The notes beneath the pieces were generated by a model, which worked only from the letters and a program-made list of their open reading frames with translations, had not been told where the DNA came from and ran no database searches. Shown in pieces: positions 4,898 through 60,744 of a stretch of 64,000 nt of DNA. The first letter of the stretch is position 1; every line of letters starts with the position of its first letter. The DNA is from Lentisphaerota bacterium (GTDB taxonomy: Bacteria; Verrucomicrobiota; Lentisphaeria; Victivallales; Victivallaceae). The DNA lies in assembly GCA_015061885.1 (NCBI GenBank), contig SUVS01000001.1:62001-126000 (forward strand), written 5' to 3'. A program made the position numbers and the translations under genes.

Positions 4898-5746
4898 TCA
4901 ATTTTGTTTTGCGGCGGTTTTCAGGTGCTTGATTTCATCTGCCCATAATTCCGGCACTGGAGTTTCCAGTATTATAGGTATGTCGTCCAGAGCCGGATCT
5001 GCGGCAATGCGTTCAAAAGTTTCCCAGCCGAGTGTTCCTTTGCCCAGACTGTCGTGCCGGTCGAGTTTACTGCCCAGCGGAGCTTTGGCATCGTTCAGGT
5101 GGATGCCCCCAAGACGGTCGAAGCCGATCAGCGAATCAAAACGCCGCCAGAAATCGTAATAGTTTTCCGGCGTCTTCAAATCATAACCGGCAGCATAGCT
5201 GTGACAGGTATCTATACAGACTTTGACCCGGTCATCGGCGGCGGTAAATTCGATTATTCTTGCGATTTGTTCCAGGGTAAAACCCATATTGCTGCCCTGT
5301 CCGGCGGTGTTTTCGATTACCGCAAAGACACCGTCGGTTCCGGCAAGAGCAGTTTTTATGCCATCGGCGATCCGACGCATACACTCGTCTTCGCTGATAA
5401 GTTTGAGATGACTGCCGGGGTGAAAGTTCAAGCGGTGCAAGCCTAAATCCTGACAGCGTTTCATTTCTTCGGTAAACGCCGCATGAGCAGCTTTGGCTTT
5501 GCCGGGATCGGGCTGACCGAGATTGATAAGGTAACTGTCATGCGGCAGGATCATATCAAGTCTGAAATTACGGGCTTGACAGTTTGCTTTGAATTGAGCA
5601 ATATCTTCCTCTTTCTGCGGCGGGGCACTCCACTGCCGTTGGTTTTTAGTGAACAATGCAAAGGTATCCGCTCCGATAGCGGCTGCGTTCAAGGGGGCGT
5701 TGAAAACACCTCCGGCGGCACTTACATGGGCTCCGAAATATTTCAT
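4898..5746 (-). CDS. nfo: Endonuclease IV (AP endonuclease)
   Basis: A 282-residue TIM-barrel enzyme of base excision repair that cuts DNA 5' to abasic sites using three zinc ions. Family motifs appear in order: GAHVSAAGG at the N terminus, NFHPGSHL, VIENTAGQG, CIDTCHSYAAGYDL, GGIHLNDAK followed by DRHDSLGKG, and the C-terminal ILETPVP. These contain the His/Asp/Glu metal ligands. Length is normal. It is divergent from the XPB-like helicase gene with a 123-bp gap in which a minus-strand TATATT lies near 5776-5781. Confidence 0.95.
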   Translation of the reverse strand: MKYFGAHVSAAGGVFNAPLNAAAIGADTFALFTKNQRQWSAPPQKEEDIAQFKANCQARNFRLDMILPHDSYLINLGQPDPGKAKAAHAAFTEEMKRCQDLGLHRLNFHPGSHLKLISEDECMRRIADGIKTALAGTDGVFAVIENTAGQGSNMGFTLEQIARIIEFTAADDRVKVCIDTCHSYAAGYDLKTPENYYDFWRRFDSLIGFDRLGGIHLNDAKAPLGSKLDRHDSLGKGTLGWETFERIAADPALDDIPIILETPVPELWADEIKHLKTAAKQN

Positions 5747-5869
5747 AAAGCAGTAAAAACTCCATTTTTTATCTTAATATAACTGGCAATTTTATATTTG
5801 CCGATGTAACTTACTATAATCTTTATCCTTAAAAAAGCAAATCAATAAACAGCAAGGCGGCGATAAATC

Positions 5870-7273
5870 ATGATCCGGACAGTTTTTGACAACGGCACAC
5901 TGGTCTGGACGGGCGATGAAACAGCTTCGCTGGTTGCCGCCGCTCCTGATTTCTTTAAATTTGACAACCGGATCAATGCTTTTCGTTCCCGTGCTTGCGA
6001 TTATGCATCTATTTTGCAGAAAGTCCGCAGTTTGCAGTTGCCGTTTACCGATGAAGCATGTGCGTTTGAACCGATCCGTAATCTGGCTTTGCAGGAAACT
6101 CTGATTCCCCGTCCGCATCAGCAGACAGCTTTTGATGCGTGGCGTAAAAACGGCTATCGCGGGGTTGCGGCGTTGCCTACCGGCAGCGGCAAAACTATTC
6201 TGGCGGTGATGGCGATCGCCCGCCTGAAACGGCCGGCTCTGGTACTGGTGCCCACTATTGACTTACTGGCTCAATGGACAAATGTTTTAAAGCGTTTTTT
6301 CAATGTTCCGATCGGTATGTGGGGCGGCGGCAGCAGCGAAACACATGATATAACGGTTGCCACTTATAATTCGGCGGTGCTGAAAATGGAGTTTTACGGT
6401 AACCGGTTTGCTTTTCTTATTGCCGACGAGTGTCATCATCTGCCGGGGCCTGCCAATCAGCTGGCGGCTCAATGGTCGATCGCACCGTACCGGCTGGGTT
6501 TGAGTGCCACGCCGGAGAGCGATCCCGGCCGCGATGAAATAATGAAAGACCTGATGGGGGAGGTCTGCTGCCGGATACAGATCGACGAATTATCAGAAGG
6601 CATACTTTCGGATTATGATGTGGAAACGGTTGAATTATCGCTTAACAGGGAAGAACAGGCGGAATATTTGTTCAACCGCAAAATATATATTGATTTTCTG
6701 CATAAGCACCGTCTGGTGATGACTTCGGTGCGTTCCTGGCGGAATTTTATTATGGAAGTAGCCCGCAACGGGCAAGCCGGACGCAAAGCGTTTGAAGCCT
6801 ATCTCAAACAGAAAAGCATCGCCCGCGGCGGCGAAGAAAAATTCAAAATGGTCTGGGCTCTTCTCATGCGTCACGCGGGAGAACGGATCATTATTTTTAC
6901 TGCTGAGAATGCCGCGGCTTATGAGCTGGGCAGACGCTATTATCTGCCGGTACTTACGCACCACACCAAAAGTGCTGAACGCCGCTGTATGCTGGAAAAT
7001 TTCCGAACCGGCGATTGTCCGGTGCTGGTTTCCAGCAAAGTTCTCAACGAAGGAGTCGATGTGCCGGAAGCCAATATCGGCATAATCGTTTCCGGCGGAG
7101 CAAGTGTGCGGGAGCATGTTCAGCGGCTCGGCCGCATACTGCGTGCCAAACCGGGTAAAAAAGCAATTCTCTATGAACTGGTCAATTCTTCTACCAGCGA
7201 ATTGAATATACTCAACCGCCGCCGCGAACACCGGGCGTATTCCAGTAAAGTACCCGGAGGCGGTATATGCTGA
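5870..7273 (+). CDS. XPB/Rad25-type superfamily 2 DNA helicase
   Basis: A 467-residue SF2 helicase. After an N-terminal region of about 80 residues come the Q-like motif LIPRPHQQTAF, Walker A LPTGSGKT (about 102-109), DECHH (about 186-190) as motif II, and GLSATPESD as motif III. The C-terminal RecA domain carries VLVSSKVLNEGVDVPEANIG and QRLGRILRAK (motif VI). The compact architecture and the gene that follows fit archaeal-type XPB rather than RecG, UvrB or RecQ. Its stop overlaps the start of the Bax1/DUF790 gene by 7 bp, so the two products are probably made together. A TATAAT lies at 5815-5820. Role inferred: DNA repair or processing of bubbles and flaps. Confidence 0.85.
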   Translation: MIRTVFDNGTLVWTGDETASLVAAAPDFFKFDNRINAFRSRACDYASILQKVRSLQLPFTDEACAFEPIRNLALQETLIPRPHQQTAFDAWRKNGYRGVAALPTGSGKTILAVMAIARLKRPALVLVPTIDLLAQWTNVLKRFFNVPIGMWGGGSSETHDITVATYNSAVLKMEFYGNRFAFLIADECHHLPGPANQLAAQWSIAPYRLGLSATPESDPGRDEIMKDLMGEVCCRIQIDELSEGILSDYDVETVELSLNREEQAEYLFNRKIYIDFLHKHRLVMTSVRSWRNFIMEVARNGQAGRKAFEAYLKQKSIARGGEEKFKMVWALLMRHAGERIIIFTAENAAAYELGRRYYLPVLTHHTKSAERRCMLENFRTGDCPVLVSSKVLNEGVDVPEANIGIIVSGGASVREHVQRLGRILRAKPGKKAILYELVNSSTSELNILNRRREHRAYSSKVPGGGIC

Positions 7274-8499
7274 ACCGTGAACATCTGCAATACAGCCGCA
7301 ATTCAGGCAGAATAAGTGTGCGTTTCCTGAAAAACACTCCGGCAGACAAGATCATAGCCGGGGCTTTGCTGGATATTTATCAGGAGGCGGCGGCAAAACA
7401 GCTCTCCCGGTCGGAACTGGAAGAAAATCTGGAACCTTTTCTGAAAGCCGCTTTGAATGGAAAAGCCGCTGCCGGCATGAACAAAGTAATACTCGATCAT
7501 TGTACTTTTACCGGGCAGGGCGTTGAGTACGAACCGGCTGCCATGCGGGAAAAGTTGTTCAAATGTGCCGCTAAAGTATTGTTGAACGGTGTTGAAAGTT
7601 TGGAGCTTTACCGACGGAAAGTACAGCAGAGCATGACAGATGAAGGTTTTTTTGCCCGCGATATTTACGGCGATCTGCCGGAATTTGACCGTTTGACCGC
7701 CGCTCCGGCATGGAATGTGGCTGAACTTTGCAATATATACAATGTAAATCTGGTGCAGGGGCTGCTGTTATACGCTGAAAGTCTGGAGCTTTTTCTGGCT
7801 GATCCCGACCCTATGACCTTGCGTAAATTCATGCGGCGGCTGAAATTTTTCCGTTTGCTGGCTGAAATCGAAAAAGTTTCCACGCACGAAGTAAAGCTGG
7901 TGGTCAGCGGCCCTGCTGTGCTTTTTGGCGAAAACCGCAAATACGGCTTGCAGCTGGCGGCGTTCTTTCAGGTAATACTTTTGATGCAGGAGTGGAAAAT
8001 GCGTGCCAGACTGCGTTTGCGGAATAATGACAATGTGGAAATACTCAACCTTTCCAGTAAAAATTGTGATCTGAAAAGTTCCGCCCGCCGCTGGGCAGCC
8101 TGTGTGCCGGAAGAAGTCGCACTTTTTATCCGGCACTTCCGTACTCATGCCGAACACTGGCAGGAGGCTCCGGCGGCGGATTTGCCCCGGATAGCCGGCA
8201 AAGGGGTGATTTTTCCGGATTTTTCATTTTGTCGGAGCAATGATCCGTCAAAAACTGTGCATGTGGAGCTTTTTCACCGCTATTACAGTACCACGCTCGA
8301 AGAACGGTTGACTTTTCTGCAAAACAATCCCGCATACCCGTTAGCAGTCGGCATAGACCGTTTTCTGCTGGGAAAGGGCGGAGAAAAGGCGTTTCTTGAG
8401 CGGTACAATACCATAAAAGATCATATTTTCCTTTACAGCAATTACCCCGGAGTGGAAAAAGTCTGCCGCACTCTCGATAAGATCGCGGCAGTTCTGTAA
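7267..8499 (+). CDS. Bax1-like nuclease (DUF790 family), partner of XPB
   Basis: A 410-residue protein matching the DUF790/Bax1 layout. It has a short N-terminal region (LQYSRNSGRISVRFL), then DIYGDLPEFDRL (about 132-143), the helical YNVNLVQGLLLYA (about 158-170), and a C-terminal PD-(D/E)xK-like domain with FPDFSF (about 316-321), HVELFHRYY (Glu about 334) and AVGIDRFL (about 360-367). In archaea Bax1 binds XPB and acts as the structure-specific nuclease of an unwinding-and-cutting complex. Overlap with the XPB gene supports that pairing here. No lysine follows the Glu in the expected xK position, as is usual for this family. It converges on the methyltransferase gene with a 6-bp gap. Confidence 0.8.
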   Translation: MLNREHLQYSRNSGRISVRFLKNTPADKIIAGALLDIYQEAAAKQLSRSELEENLEPFLKAALNGKAAAGMNKVILDHCTFTGQGVEYEPAAMREKLFKCAAKVLLNGVESLELYRRKVQQSMTDEGFFARDIYGDLPEFDRLTAAPAWNVAELCNIYNVNLVQGLLLYAESLELFLADPDPMTLRKFMRRLKFFRLLAEIEKVSTHEVKLVVSGPAVLFGENRKYGLQLAAFFQVILLMQEWKMRARLRLRNNDNVEILNLSSKNCDLKSSARRWAACVPEEVALFIRHFRTHAEHWQEAPAADLPRIAGKGVIFPDFSFCRSNDPSKTVHVELFHRYYSTTLEERLTFLQNNPAYPLAVGIDRFLLGKGGEKAFLERYNTIKDHIFLYSNYPGVEKVCRTLDKIAAVL

Positions 8500-8505
8500 A
8501 GTATT

Positions 8506-9366
8506 TTACTTACGCATCCAGGTGGCGGTTATACCGGCGGGCAGTACTCTGCCGGTGGCTTCCGGTATGGTCATTTCCCGGCTTTGGATCGAACCTTTCC
8601 CCAGTACCGATTCCAGCAACCGCTCCAGACCCAGCGGCGTAAATCCCGGTGAGTGACAGCTCAAAGTTACAAAAGCATTGCCGTCTTTTTCCAGAAGATC
8701 GCGGCACATGGCAAGCAGTTCTATGATCTGATCGTCGATTTTCCAGAGCTGACCGGCACTGCCTCTGCCGAAACTCGGCGGGTCAAGAGCGATACCGTTA
8801 TAACGGTTGCCGCGGCGTAACTCCCGCTTACAGAATTTGTTTACATCGTCAACGATCCAGCGTATCCGGTCGGGTACATCATCATTCATGCTCTGATTGA
8901 TCCTGCCCCATTCCACCATGCCGCGGGAGGCATCAAGATGCGATACCAACGCTCCGGCTCTTGCCATTGCCATTGAACCGATGCCCGAATAAGCAAACAG
9001 GTTCATTGTCTTGACATCTTTGCCCAGCGTGGGGATGATCTCTTCAAAAAACTTCCAGTTTTCGTACTGTTCGGCAAAAAATCCCAAATGCCCGAAACTG
9101 GTCGGTTTGATGTGCAGATCAAAGTTGCCCCATCGCATTGACCAGCTTTCCGGCAGAGTGCGGTTGAGAGTTTTCCATTTGCCGTGTCCGGAACTGTCGC
9201 GGATGAATTCGGCATCGGCAGAAAGCCATTGATCTTTCTGCAGCATGGGCGACCAGCAGGCGTTCAACGCCGGCCGGATGAGTTTCCACGGGCCGACCTG
9301 TTCAAGTTTACGGAAATTTCCGGTATCAAGCAGTTGATAATCCAGGACTTTATCTGATTTCTTCAT
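8506..9366 (-). CDS. SAM-dependent methyltransferase, RlmI/RlmK-like
   Basis: A Rossmann-fold class I methyltransferase of about 286 residues. Motif I is MNLFAYSGIGSMAMARAGA with SHLDASRGMVEWGR after it (SAM binding), and motif IV is ALDPPSFGRG, the DPPxF form typical of COG1092-type rRNA cytosine or guanine methyltransferases. There is no PUA domain at the N terminus. The frame runs upstream into nagA, but the ATG at 9366 overlaps the nagA stop as TAATG, so translational coupling is likely. The target, rRNA or other, cannot be set from sequence. Confidence 0.8.
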   Translation of the reverse strand: MKKSDKVLDYQLLDTGNFRKLEQVGPWKLIRPALNACWSPMLQKDQWLSADAEFIRDSSGHGKWKTLNRTLPESWSMRWGNFDLHIKPTSFGHLGFFAEQYENWKFFEEIIPTLGKDVKTMNLFAYSGIGSMAMARAGALVSHLDASRGMVEWGRINQSMNDDVPDRIRWIVDDVNKFCKRELRRGNRYNGIALDPPSFGRGSAGQLWKIDDQIIELLAMCRDLLEKDGNAFVTLSCHSPGFTPLGLERLLESVLGKGSIQSREMTIPEATGRVLPAGITATWMRK

Positions 9367-10595
9367 TATATATTCTCTTGTTCGGATGGTTTCTGAACCG
9401 GTTTTATGTTTTCTGCACAAAAAATGATTTCGCCGCGGCATATTGTCATGAGCAGTTTATTGGTGTGCTGTTCAAAGATCGCCATATCCGCTCGGGTTCC
9501 CGGCCGGAGTATGCCGCGGTCGCTCAAACCCAGCGACAGGGCAGGGTTGTAGTTTACGCTGCCGGCGGCATAAGTTTCGTCGGTATTGGCGTAGTTCATC
9601 AAACTGTGCCAGCCGTCATCGAGCATAGTGGTGGTACCGGCAAGTTTGCCTTCCGGCGTGAGCGAAAAACCTTTTTCCACCACGATCGGCGAATCGCCGA
9701 TAAAGTATCTGCCGTCGGGCATTCCGGATGCCATGATCGCATCGCTGACCGCCACCAGTTTGGTTTCCGGCTTACAACGGCACGCCAGCTCTACCATACG
9801 CGGGTGCAGGTGTTTGCCGTCGATGATAAGTTCAACCGTAACCCGGTCATCGGTCAACGCCACGGCGGTTATTGATATATGCCGCTGTTCCAGCGGGGGC
9901 ATGCCGTTGAACAGATGCGTACAGCAGCGGGCTCCGGCATCAATGGCACGCAAGGTTTCTTCTTCATTGGCTATACTGTGCCCCATGGATGGCTGAATAT
10001 TGGCTTGCAGCAGTAATTCAACAAGTTTATCCGCTCCCGGCAGTTCCGGAGCAAAAGTCACCCTGCGGATCAATCCTTTACCGGCGGCAATCAATTCCTG
10101 CATCAAGACCGGGTCGAACTGCCGGATGGATGATATATCCTGGGCACCTCTTTTTAGAGGATTTATAAAAGGCCCTTCAAGGTGTATTCCCACCGGTTCG
10201 GCTCCGGGCATGGGGGCATTTATCATTTCAGCAAGGGCAGATATTTCATTGAGCATTGTTTCGTGATTCAAACTTACCACGGTCGGTACAAAGGCGGTGA
10301 CTCCACGCGAAGCCAGAAGCCGGCTCATGGATTGAATACTGCCTTCGTTGCGGCTGGCACGGGAGGCATCGAACCCGGCACCGCCGTGAATGTGTGAATC
10401 AATAAAACCGGGCATGATATAAGCATCTGGCAGATCATATACTTCCAGTTCTGCTTCCATATTAAAAGCCGATACCCCGCCGACGGCGAGTATGGAACTG
10501 TCTTCGCAAAGCACAGCACTCTGATCTATCCGTTTCTGCGGCGTCAGGGCGTATCCGGTTTTGTAAAGACGGCGAACGCGGTTTTTCTGTTTCAT
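9366..10595 (-). CDS. nagA: N-acetylglucosamine-6-phosphate deacetylase
   Basis: An amidohydrolase-fold enzyme of about 409 residues that removes acetate from GlcNAc-6-phosphate in amino sugar and murein recycling. Visible are the metal-binding GFIDSHIHGG, HLEGPFINPLKRGAQ (Glu ligand), GHSIANEEETL, THLFNGMPPLEQRH and the catalytic Asp in AVSDAIMASG, followed by LAGTTTML and the C-terminal LSDRGILRPGTRADMAIF. The frame allows a GTG ten codons upstream, but the ATG at 10595 has AGGA at better spacing. No nagB lies beside it. The methyltransferase follows with overlapping stop and start. Confidence 0.93.
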   Translation of the reverse strand: MKQKNRVRRLYKTGYALTPQKRIDQSAVLCEDSSILAVGGVSAFNMEAELEVYDLPDAYIMPGFIDSHIHGGAGFDASRASRNEGSIQSMSRLLASRGVTAFVPTVVSLNHETMLNEISALAEMINAPMPGAEPVGIHLEGPFINPLKRGAQDISSIRQFDPVLMQELIAAGKGLIRRVTFAPELPGADKLVELLLQANIQPSMGHSIANEEETLRAIDAGARCCTHLFNGMPPLEQRHISITAVALTDDRVTVELIIDGKHLHPRMVELACRCKPETKLVAVSDAIMASGMPDGRYFIGDSPIVVEKGFSLTPEGKLAGTTTMLDDGWHSLMNYANTDETYAAGSVNYNPALSLGLSDRGILRPGTRADMAIFEQHTNKLLMTICRGEIIFCAENIKPVQKPSEQENI

Positions 10596-11190
10596 AAACC
10601 AATATCCTGAAAATTTATTTGACACGGGCGGGATCCGGCAGTATCTTTAAACAACGCTTTTGCCGCCTCTTGTTTTATTGCACTATAATGTAATACATCA
10701 AAGCCAAAAAAGCAAGGCACTTTCGGGTCTTGACGGAAATTTTTCCTATATATACCCATATTCGTAAAATGTCAAGTCCCGAAACAATAAAAATTTCAAC
10801 TTTTTTTCTTGAAAACTTTTCAATTTTGATTTGAAATATTGACAAAGTGGGAGTAAATTGTTAATTGTTCGCCGCAAGCGAAAGTGAGTCGGGGTTGTTA
10901 ATAACTTGTTAATAACTTGTGTGCTGTTTTGCCTGATTTGTTGTAAGTTGCGATTGTATTGCAGGGTTTTGACTTTTTACAGCAAAAAAAGATGCTGAAG
11001 CACTCGCCTGAAACCGGAAGGTTGGGGCTTTTTGAGGCTGTTTGAGCGTAAAAAAGCTGTAACTTGTTGTTGGATGTAGAGTTGCCGGGGAGGGGCGGAG
11101 CAAGTGCATAAAACGGGTATAAAAAGCTGTAAGTAGCACACGCACGCATGATTAACAACGACTTGTGAACAACTTGGGCGGTCTGTGAAA
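10596..11190. other. Candidate replication origin (oriC) next to dnaA
   Basis: This non-coding region holds a very AT-rich tract (about 10760-10860) followed by repeats. TTGTTAAT occurs at 10858, 10895 and 10906 on the plus strand and at 11158-11151 on the minus strand, and TTGTGAACAAC is at 11163-11173. The 10895 and 10906 copies are a perfect 11-bp tandem repeat. Their core TGTTAATAA matches 7 of 9 bases of the reverse complement of the E. coli DnaA box. A 12-bp direct repeat AAAAAGCTGTAA occurs at 11051 and 11121. I see no convincing gene here. Origin function is inferred from position beside dnaA and composition. Confidence 0.5.
10895..10916 (+). repeat. Tandem 11-bp repeat, possible DnaA boxes
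   Basis: Two perfect head-to-tail copies of TTGTTAATAAC (10895-10905 and 10906-10916). Related single copies lie at 10858-10868, 11148-11158 (minus) and 11163-11173. They resemble degenerate DnaA boxes. Confidence 0.6.
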
Positions 11191-11218: not shown

Positions 11219-11277
11219 AGTTAAAATGCTGTTTCCGGCGTGATGCACGGAAATGCATGGAAAAATCAAGGAAAAAA

Positions 11278-12663
11278 ATGTCTAACGGAGAACAATTAGC
11301 GGCAGAATTGTGGAAGATAGCCACAGAACGGTTGCGTACTATGGTGCCGGATAACATCTATAAGCAGTGGTTTCTCAATATGCAGCCTCTGCGGTTGGAT
11401 GGAGCCTGTCTGGTGCTTGGCGTTGCCGATGACTTTTTTGCCGAATGGGTGGAAAGGTCATATTCAACACAGATCGCCGAGGCTTTGAGCAATATTGCCG
11501 GACATGATTATGGGCATAAGTTTGAAGAGGGGTTTGCTCCGCAAATTCCAAGCGAACCGGTTGAACAGGTAAAAGCCGAAGAGGATAAAGCCGTCGATAC
11601 GATGCCGGAAACTTTAAGCAATATAAGCACTCCGGCTAAAAGCAACAGAGTTTACTCAAGTTACACTTTCGATAACTTTGTAGTGGGCGAAGAAAACCGC
11701 TATGCCTATACTGCTGCCCGCACCGCCGCAGAAAAGCCGGGGTTGTTCAACCCGCTTTATATTTACGGTAATACCGGTATCGGCAAAACCCATCTGTTGC
11801 ACGCGGTGGCTCATGAAGTGCAGAAAAATAATCCGAATATGGTTGTGCGTTACGCTACCTGCGAAGAAATATTGAATTGCTTTGTTGAGTCGCTCAAAAG
11901 TCATCAGTACGGTTCGTTCCGTTCGCAGCTGCGTGATGTTGATATGCTCCTGGTGGACGATATTCATGTTCTGGGCAGCAAGGGGCAGCTGCAGGAACAG
12001 TTCTTTAACGCCTTTAATGCTCTTTACTCTGAAGGCAAGCAGATCATTCTTACTTCGGATAAACGCCCGTCGGAAATATCCGGGTTGGAAGCCCGTCTTA
12101 TTTCCCGTTTTGAACAGGGGGTCACGACCGAAATTTATGCTCCGGGGCTGGAAGTGCGTATAGCTATTCTCCGTGGTATGCAGCAGAATTTTATGATGCG
12201 TTTCGATGATGAGATCCTGGAATTTATTGCATCGCGGATCTCCAGTAATGTCCGCCGTTTGCAAGGGGCTTTGATGCAGTTGCTGACCAGAGTGTCGCTG
12301 GATCAGGATATGCCTATAACTATTGAACGCGTGGAGTACATACTCCATTCTGTTTTTGAAGAAGAATTTACTTCGCAGCAGATCACGGTCGATGATATTC
12401 AAAAGAAAGTTGCGGAATATTTCAATTTGCGGGTCAGCGATCTTTTGAGCAATAAGCGGCCCAAGAGTATTGCGGAGCCCAGAATGGTTGCCATGTATCT
12501 GGCACGCAAATTAACTGACAGCAGTTTCCCGCAAATCGGCAGTGCCTTCGGCCGTAATCATGCCACGATCATGAATGCGTGGACAAAAGTTCCTGAACTG
12601 TGTGCCAAAGATGAGGAATTACGCCGGGCGGTTTCATTGCTGGAGCGGCAGTTGAAAAGCTGA
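11278..12663 (+). CDS. dnaA: Chromosomal replication initiator DnaA, divergent
   Basis: About 461 residues with the four DnaA domains: N-terminal interaction domain, short linker, AAA+ domain with Walker A GNTGIGKT and Walker B LLVDDIH, the sensor/finger region RLISRFEQG, and the C-terminal helix-turn-helix. I prefer the ATG at 11278 because AAGGA stands 7 nt before it. The ATG at 11257 has only a weak site. The C-terminal signature is unusual: where most DnaA proteins have FGGRDHTTV, this one reads FGRNHATI, one residue shorter, with Asp to Asn and Thr to Ala in the base-reading motif. The KR region of the basic loop is kept. A strong terminator follows, so the gene is transcribed alone. Confidence 0.93.
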   Translation: MSNGEQLAAELWKIATERLRTMVPDNIYKQWFLNMQPLRLDGACLVLGVADDFFAEWVERSYSTQIAEALSNIAGHDYGHKFEEGFAPQIPSEPVEQVKAEEDKAVDTMPETLSNISTPAKSNRVYSSYTFDNFVVGEENRYAYTAARTAAEKPGLFNPLYIYGNTGIGKTHLLHAVAHEVQKNNPNMVVRYATCEEILNCFVESLKSHQYGSFRSQLRDVDMLLVDDIHVLGSKGQLQEQFFNAFNALYSEGKQIILTSDKRPSEISGLEARLISRFEQGVTTEIYAPGLEVRIAILRGMQQNFMMRFDDEILEFIASRISSNVRRLQGALMQLLTRVSLDQDMPITIERVEYILHSVFEEEFTSQQITVDDIQKKVAEYFNLRVSDLLSNKRPKSIAEPRMVAMYLARKLTDSSFPQIGSAFGRNHATIMNAWTKVPELCAKDEELRRAVSLLERQLKS

Positions 12664-22501: not shown

Positions 22502-22515
22502 TACGGAGTTTTTTT

Positions 22516-23139
22516 ATGAAATCACTTACTGAAAAACAGAAGAATATGCTGGATTTTATTGATGATTTTCAGGATAAATCCGGCATGGCTCCGACAGTTT
22601 ACGAAATAGCGGATCACTTTGGGGTGAAAACCTCTACAGTGTTTGCTCATTTGAAAGCGTTGCAGCGGAAAAACCATATTTCCCGTTCTTCCAAAGCCCG
22701 CAGTATAACTGTAAAACGCCGGAACCGGCAGGTTCCGCACATGTCATTTACACTTTCGATCCCATTGCTGGGCAGGATCAATGCCGGCATGCCCGCCGAC
22801 AGCCCCGCCTTGGCAGACGGCGAATTTCCTGTATGCAGTAAATACGCTGCTTTAGTGGAAAAGGAAGCTCTTTTTGCCTTGCAGGTGAGCGGAGAAAGTA
22901 TGCGTGAACTTGGTATCTTTGATGGCGATATTGTGATCGTGCAAAAAGATTGCCCCGTGAAAAACGGCGATGTAGTTGTAGCGTTGGTCAATAACGAAAC
23001 TACTGTGAAAAGCTATTATCTGCTGGATGACGGCAAAGTGGAACTGCATCCGGCAAATGCTGAATATAAAGTTCAGCGTTATGCCGCCAACGAAGTTGTA
23101 TTGCAGGGCAAAGTAATAGCATTGCACCGGGAGTTTTGA
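22516..23139 (+). CDS. lexA: LexA repressor
   Basis: A 207-residue SOS repressor. The N-terminal winged helix contains TVYEIADHFGVKTSTVFAHLKAL (about 27-49). The C-terminal S24 domain has the self-cleavage site Ala90-Gly91 in GRINAGMP, the catalytic Ser128 in VSGESM and Lys165 in ETTVKSYY, so it should be cleavable with RecA. The frame opens 17 codons earlier inside the lipoprotein gene, but GGAG before the ATG at 22516 and the standard MKSLTEKQ beginning fix the start. I could not identify an SOS box upstream. Confidence 0.94.
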   Translation: MKSLTEKQKNMLDFIDDFQDKSGMAPTVYEIADHFGVKTSTVFAHLKALQRKNHISRSSKARSITVKRRNRQVPHMSFTLSIPLLGRINAGMPADSPALADGEFPVCSKYAALVEKEALFALQVSGESMRELGIFDGDIVIVQKDCPVKNGDVVVALVNNETTVKSYYLLDDGKVELHPANAEYKVQRYAANEVVLQGKVIALHREF

Positions 23140-56534: not shown

Positions 56535-57899
56535 ATGAGAATTGCCAGTTTTTTACTGACGGCTGTTTTGGCGGGATCATCGGTTAGTGCTGCTGTTTCC
56601 CAGGCTGAATTTGAAAAAAATGTACTCAAACCGTTTGCAGTTTGGAAAAAATCTGCTCCGGCTGCGGCTCTGCCCGGCAAAAATACGCCCGATGATATAT
56701 TGCGTAAACGGCAGGCACATACCGATGCTTTGAAAAAGTTTGCTCCGTATATGCTTGACGAATACTATGCCGTTGATCGTGCTTTTGATATGCCGATGGG
56801 TACTTATTTGAATATCTGTGTTTTCGGCACCAAAAAAACAGCGGCAAAAGCTCCGCATGAATGTACCAGTTGGATCGTGATGCCCGATCTTACTGACGGA
56901 AAAAGTCTGATCGTGCATAAAAACCGCGATTCAAGTGCCAAAAAACTGATTGCCCAGCAGCGTGCGGTAAAAGGCAAACATGCGTGGATAGGCATGGGGA
57001 ACTTCGGTAATTTGAGTACCAATATGGGGATGAACGATAAAGCACTGGTCGTGGTTATGAACAGCGGCGACCGTACCAACGACAACCGTGATGCCGGTAT
57101 CGGCACTACGGTTATGGCTCGGATCATGCTGGAAAATTGTTCCACGGCAGTTGAGGCGGTGAAAATGCTTGAGCAGATGATAGCTGCCAAAGTTTACACT
57201 CATGGTCAAAGCGGCTCCATCTGGTTTATTGCCGATAAAGACAACGCATTTATTGCCGAAAATAATGCCGAACATATTGCCGTAAAAAGTATCCACAGCG
57301 GGTTTGCCATCCGCGCCAACAGCTGGGATTTTCCGGAGATGATACCTTACAGCAATGCCAAACCCGATGATATTGTCGGCAACAATCGCCGGGAATATGC
57401 GGTGCGTGAGTTGCTGTTCAAGAAATATCAGGTTGTGACCAAAGGCGTTTTGCCTGAAATGATGGCTGAAGCCTCCCGTATCAAAGAATTTCCGGAAGAT
57501 AAAAAGTGCTATCCCTTGTGCGGCAAACTCACCAATTCGGCGGCTACATTTGTTATAGATCAAGAGTTTCCGGAAGATCTTTCTTATGCTGTTATGGCGT
57601 TCGGCAATCCGGCATATACGATTTATCTGCCCATACCTTTGACCGTAAAAGAGCTGCCTGTAGAGCTTACCAACGGAACCAATCCCGATGCGGCGATGAA
57701 GCGTTGGGCGGATAAAAAAGCATTGATGAGCGAAGAAGATACTGTGAAGTTTGAAAGCAAACTCAATATCCGCCACCGCAAAGCTCTTGCCGCCGCCCGG
57801 AAGGTTTTGCGTAAGAGCCGCGATAAAAAGCAGGCTGCGATCATATTGAACAATGCTTTCAAAGAAAATTACAAGGTTTTTTCAGAGGCAACCAGATAA
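56535..57899 (+). CDS. C45/C69-like Ntn-hydrolase, exported, copy 1
   Basis: A 454-residue exported protein (signal MRIASFLLTAVLAGSSVSA). Its centre resembles the N-terminal-nucleophile acyltransferase/amidohydrolase fold of the C45 and C69 families: HECTSWIV with Cys110 as the likely nucleophile freed by self-cleavage, then DGKSLIVHKNRD with the Asn/Asp of the family, and NNRREYAVR in the second half. Substrate unknown; a peptide or murein-derived amide is a guess. Two close relatives follow, with which it shares the NSAATFVIDxEFPE and MxRWADKKAL regions, but it is the most divergent of the three. Confidence 0.7.
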   Translation: MRIASFLLTAVLAGSSVSAAVSQAEFEKNVLKPFAVWKKSAPAAALPGKNTPDDILRKRQAHTDALKKFAPYMLDEYYAVDRAFDMPMGTYLNICVFGTKKTAAKAPHECTSWIVMPDLTDGKSLIVHKNRDSSAKKLIAQQRAVKGKHAWIGMGNFGNLSTNMGMNDKALVVVMNSGDRTNDNRDAGIGTTVMARIMLENCSTAVEAVKMLEQMIAAKVYTHGQSGSIWFIADKDNAFIAENNAEHIAVKSIHSGFAIRANSWDFPEMIPYSNAKPDDIVGNNRREYAVRELLFKKYQVVTKGVLPEMMAEASRIKEFPEDKKCYPLCGKLTNSAATFVIDQEFPEDLSYAVMAFGNPAYTIYLPIPLTVKELPVELTNGTNPDAAMKRWADKKALMSEEDTVKFESKLNIRHRKALAAARKVLRKSRDKKQAAIILNNAFKENYKVFSEATR

Positions 57900-57929: not shown

Positions 57930-59330
57930 ATGAAAAAACAGATCATATTGTCATTGCTGGCGGCTGTTGCCGTGCAGAATTCTTATTGTAAGGATATAAA
58001 TCTGGAACAGTATGTAAAAAAATACTGGACTGCCTATCAGAATAAAAAACTTGAAGTGGGCAACGGTGATAAACGCTGGCCGGTCACGCCTGATTTAAAA
58101 GCGGAACGCTTGCGGCATTTTGTTGCCATGCTGAACAGATTTGCTCCGCATCAGGTGGAGGAAGCGTATCAGATCGACCGGATTTTCGGCTGGGAAAAAG
58201 GCACTTACCTCGGACTTCTGCGTTTCGGTGCCAAAAAAGTTGAAGTAAAGCCGGAAAAAATCAATCCTTCGCATGAGTGTACCAGCTGGATAACTATGGA
58301 TAATATGACCGGCGGTAAAGAGATAATCATGCACAAAAACCGCGATACCAAAAAGCGGTTGCTGACAATTCAACGCCGTGCCTTGCCCGGTAAACATGCG
58401 TGGATCGGCAGCGGTTCGTGTTATTCATTCTACCCCGCACAGGGGATCAATGACCGCGGTGTGGTAGTGCTGATGAACTCCGGCGATGCTCATGTGGAAT
58501 CCGAAAACAGTCAGTATGGCTTGAGTACCGGTATAATCTGCCGCATACTGTTGGAAGAATGTGGAACGGCCGAAGCCGCCGTTGAAATGCTCGGAAAAAT
58601 CGTTGCCGATAACGCATATACCCATGTGGAGTGCGGTTCGATCTGGTTTATCGGCGATTACAAGAATGTTTATATTGTTGAACAGAATGCCCGCAAGTTT
58701 GTATCCAAAGCGGTCAATTCCGGTTTTATCGCCCGTGCCAACGCCTTCCATTACCCCGAAACACAGATCAGCAGTCTGCGCAGCTGTAAGAGTTTGATCG
58801 CCCACAGCCGCCGGGAATTTTCCGTGCGGGATTTTCTGGTAAATACGCAATGGCGTAAAAATGGTGTGATCACGCCGCTGGATATTGCCGCATCGTCGCG
58901 TATTGATAAGGTCGATGGCGATCCGAAGTGTTATCCGCCTTGCGGTAAAAGCACGATTTCCGGTACTACATTTGTTATTGATAAAGAATATCCGGAATTT
59001 TTGAGCAGTGTGTATGCGGCTCTTTCGTCGCCGGCAAGCTCATGCTATCTGCCCATCCCGATGACTTTGAAAGAGGTTCCTGAAGAAATCTGCAACGGTT
59101 CTTACAGCGATCGTTCGCTCAAACTTATGGAAAAAAAGCTGCCGCTTCTGCCCGCCGATAAACTTGCGGTGTTGGAAAAACGCCTTTATGAACGGCATCA
59201 GGCCGCAGTTGAAAAAGCCCGCGTTTTGCTGCGTACCAGCACCAAACATACAGTCAAAGATGATGTGGCAAAAATCCTGAACGATGCTTTTGCAGAAAAC
59301 TTCAAGGATTTGCAGTCAAGCGTAAAATAA
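57930..59330 (+). CDS. C45/C69-like Ntn-hydrolase, exported, copy 2
   Basis: A 466-residue exported paralog (signal about 20 residues, ending NSYC). Cys117 lies in SHECTSW, followed by GGKEIIMHKNRDTKKR, and EFSVRDFLVNTQWRKNGV lies in the second half. It is far more similar to copy 3 than to copy 1: long segments such as the C-terminal LAVLEKRLYERHQAAVEK are nearly identical, also at the DNA level, showing a recent tandem duplication. It begins 30 bp after copy 1. Confidence 0.72.
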   Translation: MKKQIILSLLAAVAVQNSYCKDINLEQYVKKYWTAYQNKKLEVGNGDKRWPVTPDLKAERLRHFVAMLNRFAPHQVEEAYQIDRIFGWEKGTYLGLLRFGAKKVEVKPEKINPSHECTSWITMDNMTGGKEIIMHKNRDTKKRLLTIQRRALPGKHAWIGSGSCYSFYPAQGINDRGVVVLMNSGDAHVESENSQYGLSTGIICRILLEECGTAEAAVEMLGKIVADNAYTHVECGSIWFIGDYKNVYIVEQNARKFVSKAVNSGFIARANAFHYPETQISSLRSCKSLIAHSRREFSVRDFLVNTQWRKNGVITPLDIAASSRIDKVDGDPKCYPPCGKSTISGTTFVIDKEYPEFLSSVYAALSSPASSCYLPIPMTLKEVPEEICNGSYSDRSLKLMEKKLPLLPADKLAVLEKRLYERHQAAVEKARVLLRTSTKHTVKDDVAKILNDAFAENFKDLQSSVK

Positions 59331-59346
59331 GGTGTAATATTTGATT

Positions 59347-60744
59347 ATGCGTTTATTGACAATTCTGTTTTTGATGGCACTTCTGCCCAAGTGGGGTGTT
59401 GCCGGAGACATTGATCTGGCAAATCACATAAAAAAATACTGGACTCGCTGGCACAACCGTAAAATCGAAATTGCCGACGGCGATAAACGTTGGCCGCTTA
59501 CTCCTGAATTAAAAGCTGAACGCCTTGAGCATTTCAAAAGTATGTTGAGCAAGTTTGCTCCGCATATAGTCGAAGAAACTTACCTTATTGATAAAACTTT
59601 CGGCTGGAAAAAAGGTACATATCTCGGTGTTTTGCGTTTTGGTGCCCGTAATATCAAACCACTTGCCGATGTACCCAAGCCGGAACACGAATGTACCAGC
59701 TGGATCACGATGGATAATATGACTGGCGGCAAAGAGATAATCATGCACAAGAACCGCGATTCCCGTGGCCGTCCGATCGCCATTCAACGCCGTGCAGTGC
59801 CCGGTAAACATGCGTGGATCGGCAACGGGCCGCAGTATGGACTTTCGCCGTCGCAGGGTATCAACGACCGCGGTGTGGTGGTCATGATGAATGCCGGAGA
59901 TGCTCTGCCGGAAGCCGAAAACAGTCAGTATGGTTTCGGGGTGTTTTTGATCTGCCGTATTCTGTTGGAAGAAAGCGGCAGTGCAGAAGATGCAGTGAAA
60001 CTGTTGGAAAAGATCATTTACTCCAATGCTCACAGTCATGTGGAGTGCGGTTCGATCTGGTTTATCGGCGATGCCAAAAATGTCTATATCGTCGAACACA
60101 GCAACCGCAAACTGGTTGCCAAAAAAGTCAATTCCGGTTTTATTGCCCGTGCCAATGCGTTCCATTATCCTGAAATGCAGATTTACAGTTTGCGTTCTTA
60201 CAAAAGTTTGATCGCCCACAGCCGCCGGGAGTTTGCAATACGCGATTATCTGGTAAATACGCAATGGCGTAAAAACGGCGTTATTACCGCGTTGGACAAT
60301 GCGGCGGCTTCGCGTATTGATAAATTTCCGGACGGAGCAAAGGACTATCCGCCGTGCGGTAAAAGCACGATTTCGGCAACTACTTTTGTTATTGATAAAG
60401 AATATCCGGAGTTTTTAAGTACGGCATATATGGTTTTTGCCTCGCCGGCAAGTTCCTGTTATCTGCCAGTGCCGATAACTTTGAGGGAGATACCCGAAAC
60501 CATCCTCGACGGAACTTTCAGTATGCGGTCTTTTGATTTGATGGATAAAAAACAACCATTGTTGCCGGCTGATAAACTTGCTGTTTTGGAAAAACGCCTC
60601 TATGAACGGCATCAAGCCGCAGTTGAAAAGGTTCGCGTATTACTGCGTACCAGTACCGGACACACAGTCAAGGATGATGCGGCAAAAATCCTGAATGATG
60701 CTTTTGCGGAAAATTTCAAAGATCTGCAAGCAAGCGTGAAATAA
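59347..60744 (+). CDS. C45/C69-like Ntn-hydrolase, exported, copy 3
   Basis: About 465 residues with a signal MRLLTILFLMALLPKWGVAG and nucleophile Cys about 116 in HECTSW, then GGKEIIMHKNRDSRGR. The start is ATG at 59347, or TTG at 59341 just behind AAGGTG. It follows copy 2 with a 16-bp gap. The N-terminal IKKYWTRWHNRKIE and C-terminal LNDAFAENFKDLQ match copy 2. Differences cluster in the segment after the nucleophile, which may tune substrate. Confidence 0.72.
   Translation: MRLLTILFLMALLPKWGVAGDIDLANHIKKYWTRWHNRKIEIADGDKRWPLTPELKAERLEHFKSMLSKFAPHIVEETYLIDKTFGWKKGTYLGVLRFGARNIKPLADVPKPEHECTSWITMDNMTGGKEIIMHKNRDSRGRPIAIQRRAVPGKHAWIGNGPQYGLSPSQGINDRGVVVMMNAGDALPEAENSQYGFGVFLICRILLEESGSAEDAVKLLEKIIYSNAHSHVECGSIWFIGDAKNVYIVEHSNRKLVAKKVNSGFIARANAFHYPEMQIYSLRSYKSLIAHSRREFAIRDYLVNTQWRKNGVITALDNAAASRIDKFPDGAKDYPPCGKSTISATTFVIDKEYPEFLSTAYMVFASPASSCYLPVPITLREIPETILDGTFSMRSFDLMDKKQPLLPADKLAVLEKRLYERHQAAVEKVRVLLRTSTGHTVKDDAAKILNDAFAENFKDLQASVK

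Follow-up and report, generated by a model that had tools for sequence, protein, structure and literature searches.

An XPB-Bax1 helicase-nuclease gene pair in the Lentisphaeria and a second bacterial class

The window, i.e., the whole stretch of 64,000 nucleotides that was analysed (contig SUVS01000001.1 of a Lentisphaerota bacterium), contains two overlapping genes on its forward strand, of which the first encodes an XPB-type helicase and the second a protein of the DUF790/Bax1 family. Bacterial host markers occur in the same window in the form of DnaA (11257-12663) and LexA (22510-23139). The two genes and their junction are as follows:

5870-7273, forward strand: A. fulgidus-type XPB helicase with a DRD, two RecA domains and a thumb, 467 aa, assigned from Pfam, the AfXPB match and an AF2 model
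7267-8499, forward strand: Bax1 (DUF790), a putative nuclease, 410 aa, PF05626 at 2.3e-54
7267-7273, forward strand: overlap of the XPB and Bax1 genes, ATGCTGA, 7 bp, from the ORF coordinates
7256-7260, forward strand: GGAGG, a ribosome-binding-like site for Bax1 within the 3' end of the XPB gene, 6 nt upstream of the Bax1 ATG

The overlap is exactly as described in the initial annotation. The initial annotation took it to imply coupled translation of xpb and bax1; this may be so, but bax1 has the GGAGG of its own. When start codons are chosen automatically, the two genes mostly overlap or abut in the 62 named loci where they are linked, with a spacing of -7 in 18/62 and of -1 in 13/62.

The initial annotation identified an XPB/Rad25-type helicase paired with DUF790/Bax1 in a bacterium, and on this point profiles, PDB matches and predicted structures agree. 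Pfam assigns XPB_DRD (1.7e-9), ResIII (3.1e-25) and ERCC3_RAD25_C (1.1e-16) to the helicase, and its relatives in the PDB are AfXPB, which is the best at 3e-89, eukaryotic XPB (5e-18) and RadD (6.5e-14). When judged by search scores, in place of an SF2-wide tree, the helicase is nearest to XPBs and not to other SF2 families, as had been supposed. Its AF2 model (pLDDT 88.5) superposes on 6p4f_C, the XPB chain in the crystal structure of XPB-Bax1 with forked DNA, with TM 0.85/0.91 at 2.6 A, and has the three thumb helices at residues 260-279, 287-299 and 301-319. The features of the gene are:

5885-6058, forward strand: XPB_DRD damage recognition domain, aa 6-63 (PF18458, E 1.7e-9, 37.8 bits, cut-off 26)
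6182-6196, forward strand: Walker A GSGKT, aa 105-109, with G, G and K invariant across all aligned homologues
6425-6439, forward strand: DECHH box, aa 186-190, with D, E, H and H invariant in the alignment
6515-6526, forward strand: position of the RED motif, here ESDP with Arg replaced by Ser, from the XPB alignment
6647-6826, forward strand: thumb (ThM) region, aa 260-319, from the nearly full-length alignment to AfXPB and StXPB
7121-7144, forward strand: helicase motif VI QRLGRILR, aa 418-425, near-invariant over all 89 alignment rows

In the same alignment, the C of the DECHH box is shared by the Lentisphaeria, Planctomycetota and Magnetococcales-type rows, while AfXPB and StXPB have V. 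The arginine of the RED motif is kept in 28/59 Lentisphaeria rows and in every archaeal, Deinococcus, Planctomycetota and Magnetococcales-type row. The NCBIfam equivalog model for XPB gives the window protein 157 bits against a cut-off of 610. By its sequence and its fold the window helicase is an XPB, but its RED motif is degraded, so that it is not a textbook XPB.

The second protein matches the DUF790 profile with 185 bits against a cut-off of 28.8, and its residues 1-367 cover positions 1-357 of the 387 in the profile, so that the assignment made in the initial annotation holds. Its best PDB matches are Bax1 chains, both from the single sequence (5e-13) and from a family profile (2e-32). 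A Foldseek search with the AF2 model (pLDDT 91.5) yields eight matches below E 0.001, each of them a Bax1 chain, with a TM of ~0.6 when taken over the whole multi-domain chain. The residues of interest are:

7672-7674, forward strand: Asp136, corresponding to AfBax1 D133 of the N-terminal site and XPB interface, invariant in the alignment
8218-8220, forward strand: Asp318, corresponding to AfBax1 D305 of motif II in the nuclease domain, invariant in all 110 rows
8266-8280, forward strand: ELFHR, with Glu334, aligned to AfBax1 E318 and invariant in 110 rows, and His337-Arg338 of the ELFH[RK]W loop
8305-8307, forward strand: Arg347, a basic residue of the helix that follows motif III, replaced by Lys in archaea and Deinococcus

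Position 347 is Arg or Lys in every aligned row, which fits the migrated Lys that has been noted earlier for DUF790 (PMC1913061). The motif-I glutamate, E275 in AfBax1, aligns with Ala285 at a variable position and is without a clear counterpart; two residues before this position there is a glutamate, Glu283, that is invariant in Lentisphaeria Bax1. In Lentisphaeria, the Magnetococcales-type class and Anammoxibacter, nearly every row continues after the catalytic Glu334 with [LM]-F-H-[RK]-W; the corresponding motif of archaea, Deinococcus and Planctomycetota is G-[FY]-W. In addition, E135 of AfBax1 is replaced by Pro138, and Pro occurs here in 78/79 Lentisphaeria rows. From this replacement follows the prediction that the second, N-terminal nuclease site is weak or absent in Lentisphaeria Bax1; this second active site (D133/E135) is reported from archaeal Bax1 and is not a defining trait of DUF790.

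These substitutions could mean that Bax1 of the bacterial branch mainly regulates XPB or holds DNA for it, with a weak or re-tuned nuclease. Such a role would accommodate the change of E135 to P138, the displaced motif-I Glu and the exchange of G-F for H-R beside motif III, and it has a precedent in the stimulation of the XPB ATPase by StBax1 (PMC7293015). It is nevertheless unlikely, because the invariance of Asp318 and Glu334 and the strict Arg or Lys at residue 347 are unexpected for a dead site.

The two genes are co-inherited, as is seen in several ways. When the 198 genomes of the class Lentisphaeria are scored for XPB (E below 1e-60) and DUF790, XPB is present in 156/198 and DUF790 in 154/198; both genes occur together in 152 genomes and neither occurs in 40, so that only 4 genomes have XPB alone (G184, G044, G132 and G062) and 2 have Bax1 alone (G161 and G145). 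Five of these six are MAGs under 86% complete. Fisher's test gives p 8e-35 over the 198 genomes, which are non-independent through relatedness. When Bax1 lies away from XPB, the genome keeps XPB elsewhere (12/12), and when Bax1 is missing, XPB is absent too (7/7). The association extends to two other phyla, where XPB is found in 15/16 Bax1-positive and 0/16 Bax1-negative genomes; for Planctomycetota, XPB was found in 9/10 Bax1-positive genomes tested. Furthermore, the pairwise tree distances of XPB and Bax1 are correlated with r = 0.90 over 60 genomes, a value reached in 0/1000 permutations, and with 0.77 within Lentisphaeria. In one Lentisphaeria MAG from horse feces (L098:3404-6055), XPB and Bax1 are fused in a single ORF of 883 aa, the junction of which is without the stop and start codons found in the sister locus L088. 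Judging from this one assembly, the fusion seems genuine and not the product of a simple frameshift.

A search with the Bax1 profile retrieves 251 relatives in named genomes, and the best 80 of 251 are nearly all from Lentisphaerae. Cultured species with the pair are Victivallis vadensis, Lentisphaera marina and Oligosphaera ethanolica. A phylum-wide draw of 241 genomes gives 60 DUF790 matches, all within the Lentisphaeria class. Two outlying DUF790 matches, in a Magnetococcales MAG (genome G365, locus L109) and in Ca. Anammoxibacter, pointed to further groups: DUF790 occurs in 42/48 genomes of the class of the Magnetococcales MAG, and these 42 account for all the DUF790 matches in a sample of 200 genomes from its phylum, while in the phylum of Ca. 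Anammoxibacter (Planctomycetota by record name) it occurs in 36/199 genomes. The pair is also found on plasmids of Deinococcus and haloarchaea. In at least two classes of bacteria the XPB-Bax1 pair is old, and its presence there is near-universal.

The trees of both proteins unite Lentisphaeria, Anammoxibacter and the Magnetococcales-type class in one branch (SH-aLRT 99 and 100, the only support measure for trees that are unrooted and come from 'quick' searches). This branch stands apart from the archaea in both trees, where the archaeal sample is a small one of Af, St, P. furiosus (PDB 8gy8) and six haloarchaeal plasmid loci. Within the branch, the Ca. Anammoxibacter pair (L116:2102-4721, from a planctomycete MAG) falls among Lentisphaeria in both trees, which suggests either that the pair has moved between bacteria or that the MAG is mixed or contaminated.

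The initial annotation had raised the possibility that the two genes came together from archaea, and an XPB with DRD and thumb is indeed of a type known from archaea, unlike mycobacterial XPB (PMC3353954). A recent transfer is, however, very unlikely to explain the data: the pair is spread over the whole class with coupled absences, the Lentisphaeria proteins branch with the Magnetococcales-type class and separately from archaea in both trees, and for XPB an AU test weakly rejects, with p 0.038, a grouping of Lentisphaeria and archaea without the other bacteria. An ancient transfer of the pair from archaea is possible.

Upstream, the pair is preceded by a divergent gene and an intergenic region with a conserved block:

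4898-5746, reverse strand: endonuclease IV (nfo), a divergent gene left outside the system (NF002199, 404 bits, cut-off 315)
5784-5820, forward strand: conserved block TGGCAA-N8-TTGCC...TATAAT between nfo and xpb, candidate promoter/operator, from sequence comparison

The adjoining nfo on the opposite strand was correctly noted in the initial annotation; the local repair cluster that it seemed to hint at does not hold up, since nfo adjoins xpb only in the window and in its four nearest loci (L039-L042) among the best 80 of 251 named relatives, and the other recurring neighbours, when read by eye, are housekeeping genes and not repair genes, such as those for an acetolactate synthase small subunit-like and a phosphopantetheine adenylyltransferase-like protein. 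The intergenic block is kept in 5/5 genomes with the nfo/xpb layout, with a weaker right arm in L042, and may be a shared operator or promoter of the divergent nfo and xpb-bax1; the inverted repeat GGCAA-N8-TTGCC is also present in coding DNA of the window. No inverted repeat common to the upstream regions of lexA and xpb was found when these were compared with LexA control in mind. In the window genome and its nearest relatives, dnaA lies ~3 kb from xpb-bax1.

Downstream, on the reverse strand, a methyltransferase ORF (8506-9441) overlaps an upstream amidohydrolase ORF (9366-10625, reverse strand); the former has a weak PADLOC match to mads_2 (1.7e-9), which is likelier to reflect general methyltransferase similarity. 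Far from the pair, three ORFs of similar length (56535-57899, 57930-59330 and 59341-60744) stand in tandem, look paralogous and have a CTSWI...MHKNRD stretch in common.

The initial annotation also considered a defence-type activity. A pair directed against phages or plasmids would be in line with the match of the helicase to the PbeA helicase models of PADLOC (1.5e-54) and with the plasmid-borne pairs in Deinococcus and haloarchaea. These matches concern the helicase core, however, and TIGR04095 gives the window helicase 138 bits against a cut-off of 600; for Bax1 PADLOC returns nothing, and there is no defence partner alongside the pair. Nor do defence genes recur as neighbours among the named loci. 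A search of phages finds no Bax1, and the phage matches of the window helicase are partial, or are SF2 helicases with ~24% identity. When the near-universal presence of the pair in the Lentisphaeria class and a second class is also taken into account, a role in defence becomes highly improbable.

What, then, does the pair do? In archaea, the mechanism of XPB-Bax1 has been described (PMC7293015, PMC7672443), and the conserved domains and residues of the window pair argue for a mechanism of the same type. The N-terminal domain of Bax1 would then probably dock on XPB, as it does in archaea. XPB would translocate along duplex DNA beside a junction between single and double strands, where its thumb would separate the strands, and the PD-(D/E)xK-like C-terminal domain of Bax1, with Asp318, Glu334 and, where Lys is usual, Arg347, would nick one of the strands at the junction. 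Complex formation, polarity, nuclease activity and a role in repair are thus what we infer for the window pair from its archaeal relatives. The genome that contains the window also encodes UvrA (1355 bits) and UvrC, as do nearly all its relatives, and therefore the XPB-Bax1 pair adds to UvrABC and does not substitute for it. Most likely it serves an auxiliary pathway for bubbles, forks and lesions that are poorly handled by UvrABC. The preferred reading, to which we give a probability of about 0.72, is accordingly a chromosomal XPB-Bax1 helicase-nuclease heterodimer that belongs to the core gene set of the class and works in such a pathway beside UvrABC. Counted against it are the loss of the RED-motif Arg from the window XPB and the motif-I Glu without a clear counterpart; in StXPB, a change in the RED motif weakened both bubble binding and ATPase (PMC7672443).

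The in vivo role of XPB-Bax1 is itself unsettled in archaea (PMC4471258, PMC7690668). In S. islandicus, deletion of xpb2 or bax1 gave no phenotype (PMC4471258), and for T. kodakarensis XPB a slight UV sensitivity is reported (PMC7690668). Consider the case where the complex acts on replication forks that have stalled or collapsed, or on R-loops, and not in the excision of bulky lesions. In its favour, UvrA and UvrC already serve excision repair, the archaeal deletions have small or absent UV phenotypes (PMC4471258, PMC7690668), and the DNA bound by the solved complex is forked (PMC7672443). This case is rather doubtful: apart from dnaA at ~3 kb, neither genetics nor the gene neighbourhood ties the pair to replication restart. 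A further proposal is wider in scope. According to it, the bacterial XPB-Bax1 branch of Lentisphaeria and of one or more other classes is ancient, has had its nuclease site re-built (ELFH[RK]W at the catalytic Glu, no N-terminal Glu), and runs a UvrABC-independent pathway of excision or fork processing that has not been described in bacteria. We put it forward tentatively, as an idea that is sooner wrong than right.

The initial annotation took the activity of the pair to be undescribed in bacteria, which is half right. A 2005 paper (PMC1189080) already noted that DUF790 occurs in Cyanobacteria and is linked to SSL2/COG1061 helicases, and public records for Deinococcus annotate a 'DUF790 family protein' beside a DEAD/DEAH helicase. 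The 2012 study of mycobacterial XPB states that no XPB-Bax1 complex had been identified in bacteria (PMC3353954), and in the open-licence literature we found neither biochemistry of bacterial XPB-Bax1 nor a report that ties XPB to DNA repair in Lentisphaerae, where the matches are almost all microbiota surveys. The window pair thus belongs to a known family that is hardly studied in bacteria, and the bacterial branch differs at the nuclease site. Its significance is twofold. With bacteria that have both the XPB-Bax1 and the UvrABC routes, and in which uvr is removable, the in vivo role can be put to the test; and the existence of the bacterial branch argues against the view that XPBs with DRD and thumb are recent archaeal imports in bacteria, which bears on the history of XPB.

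Among known systems, the closest is archaeal XPB(II)-Bax1 (A. fulgidus 6p66, S. tokodaii 6p4f/6p4w/6p4o), which both window proteins resemble by profile and fold. Neighbouring genes, the DRD, the RecA domains and the thumb are common to the two pairs, as are the nuclease residues D305/E318 and the N-terminal interface residues D133, Y155 and N156 of Bax1. The window pair departs from the archaeal one in that ELFH[RK]W replaces EIxGFW at the nuclease site, in that AfBax1 E135 is Pro and the RED-motif Arg of XPB is lost, and in that the host is a bacterium with UvrA/UvrC. The plasmid pairs of DUF790 and DEAD/DEAH helicase in Deinococcus consist of the same two families, also with overlapping genes, but have an EIVGYW motif and a Bax1 identity of 23-28%, and form a separate branch in the trees. 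The DUF790/XPB pairs of Planctomycetota, again of the same two families, differ by F-G-[FY]-W after the catalytic Glu and by genes that lie apart in several genomes. Mycobacterial XPB (PMC3353954) is likewise an XPB helicase in a bacterium, but its N-terminal domain is eukaryote-like, it lacks a thumb, and no Bax1 is known for it. The PbeA defence helicase of PADLOC, finally, has a related SF2 helicase core, but its match spans only the helicase part, and the partner genes of the PbeA system do not accompany the window pair.
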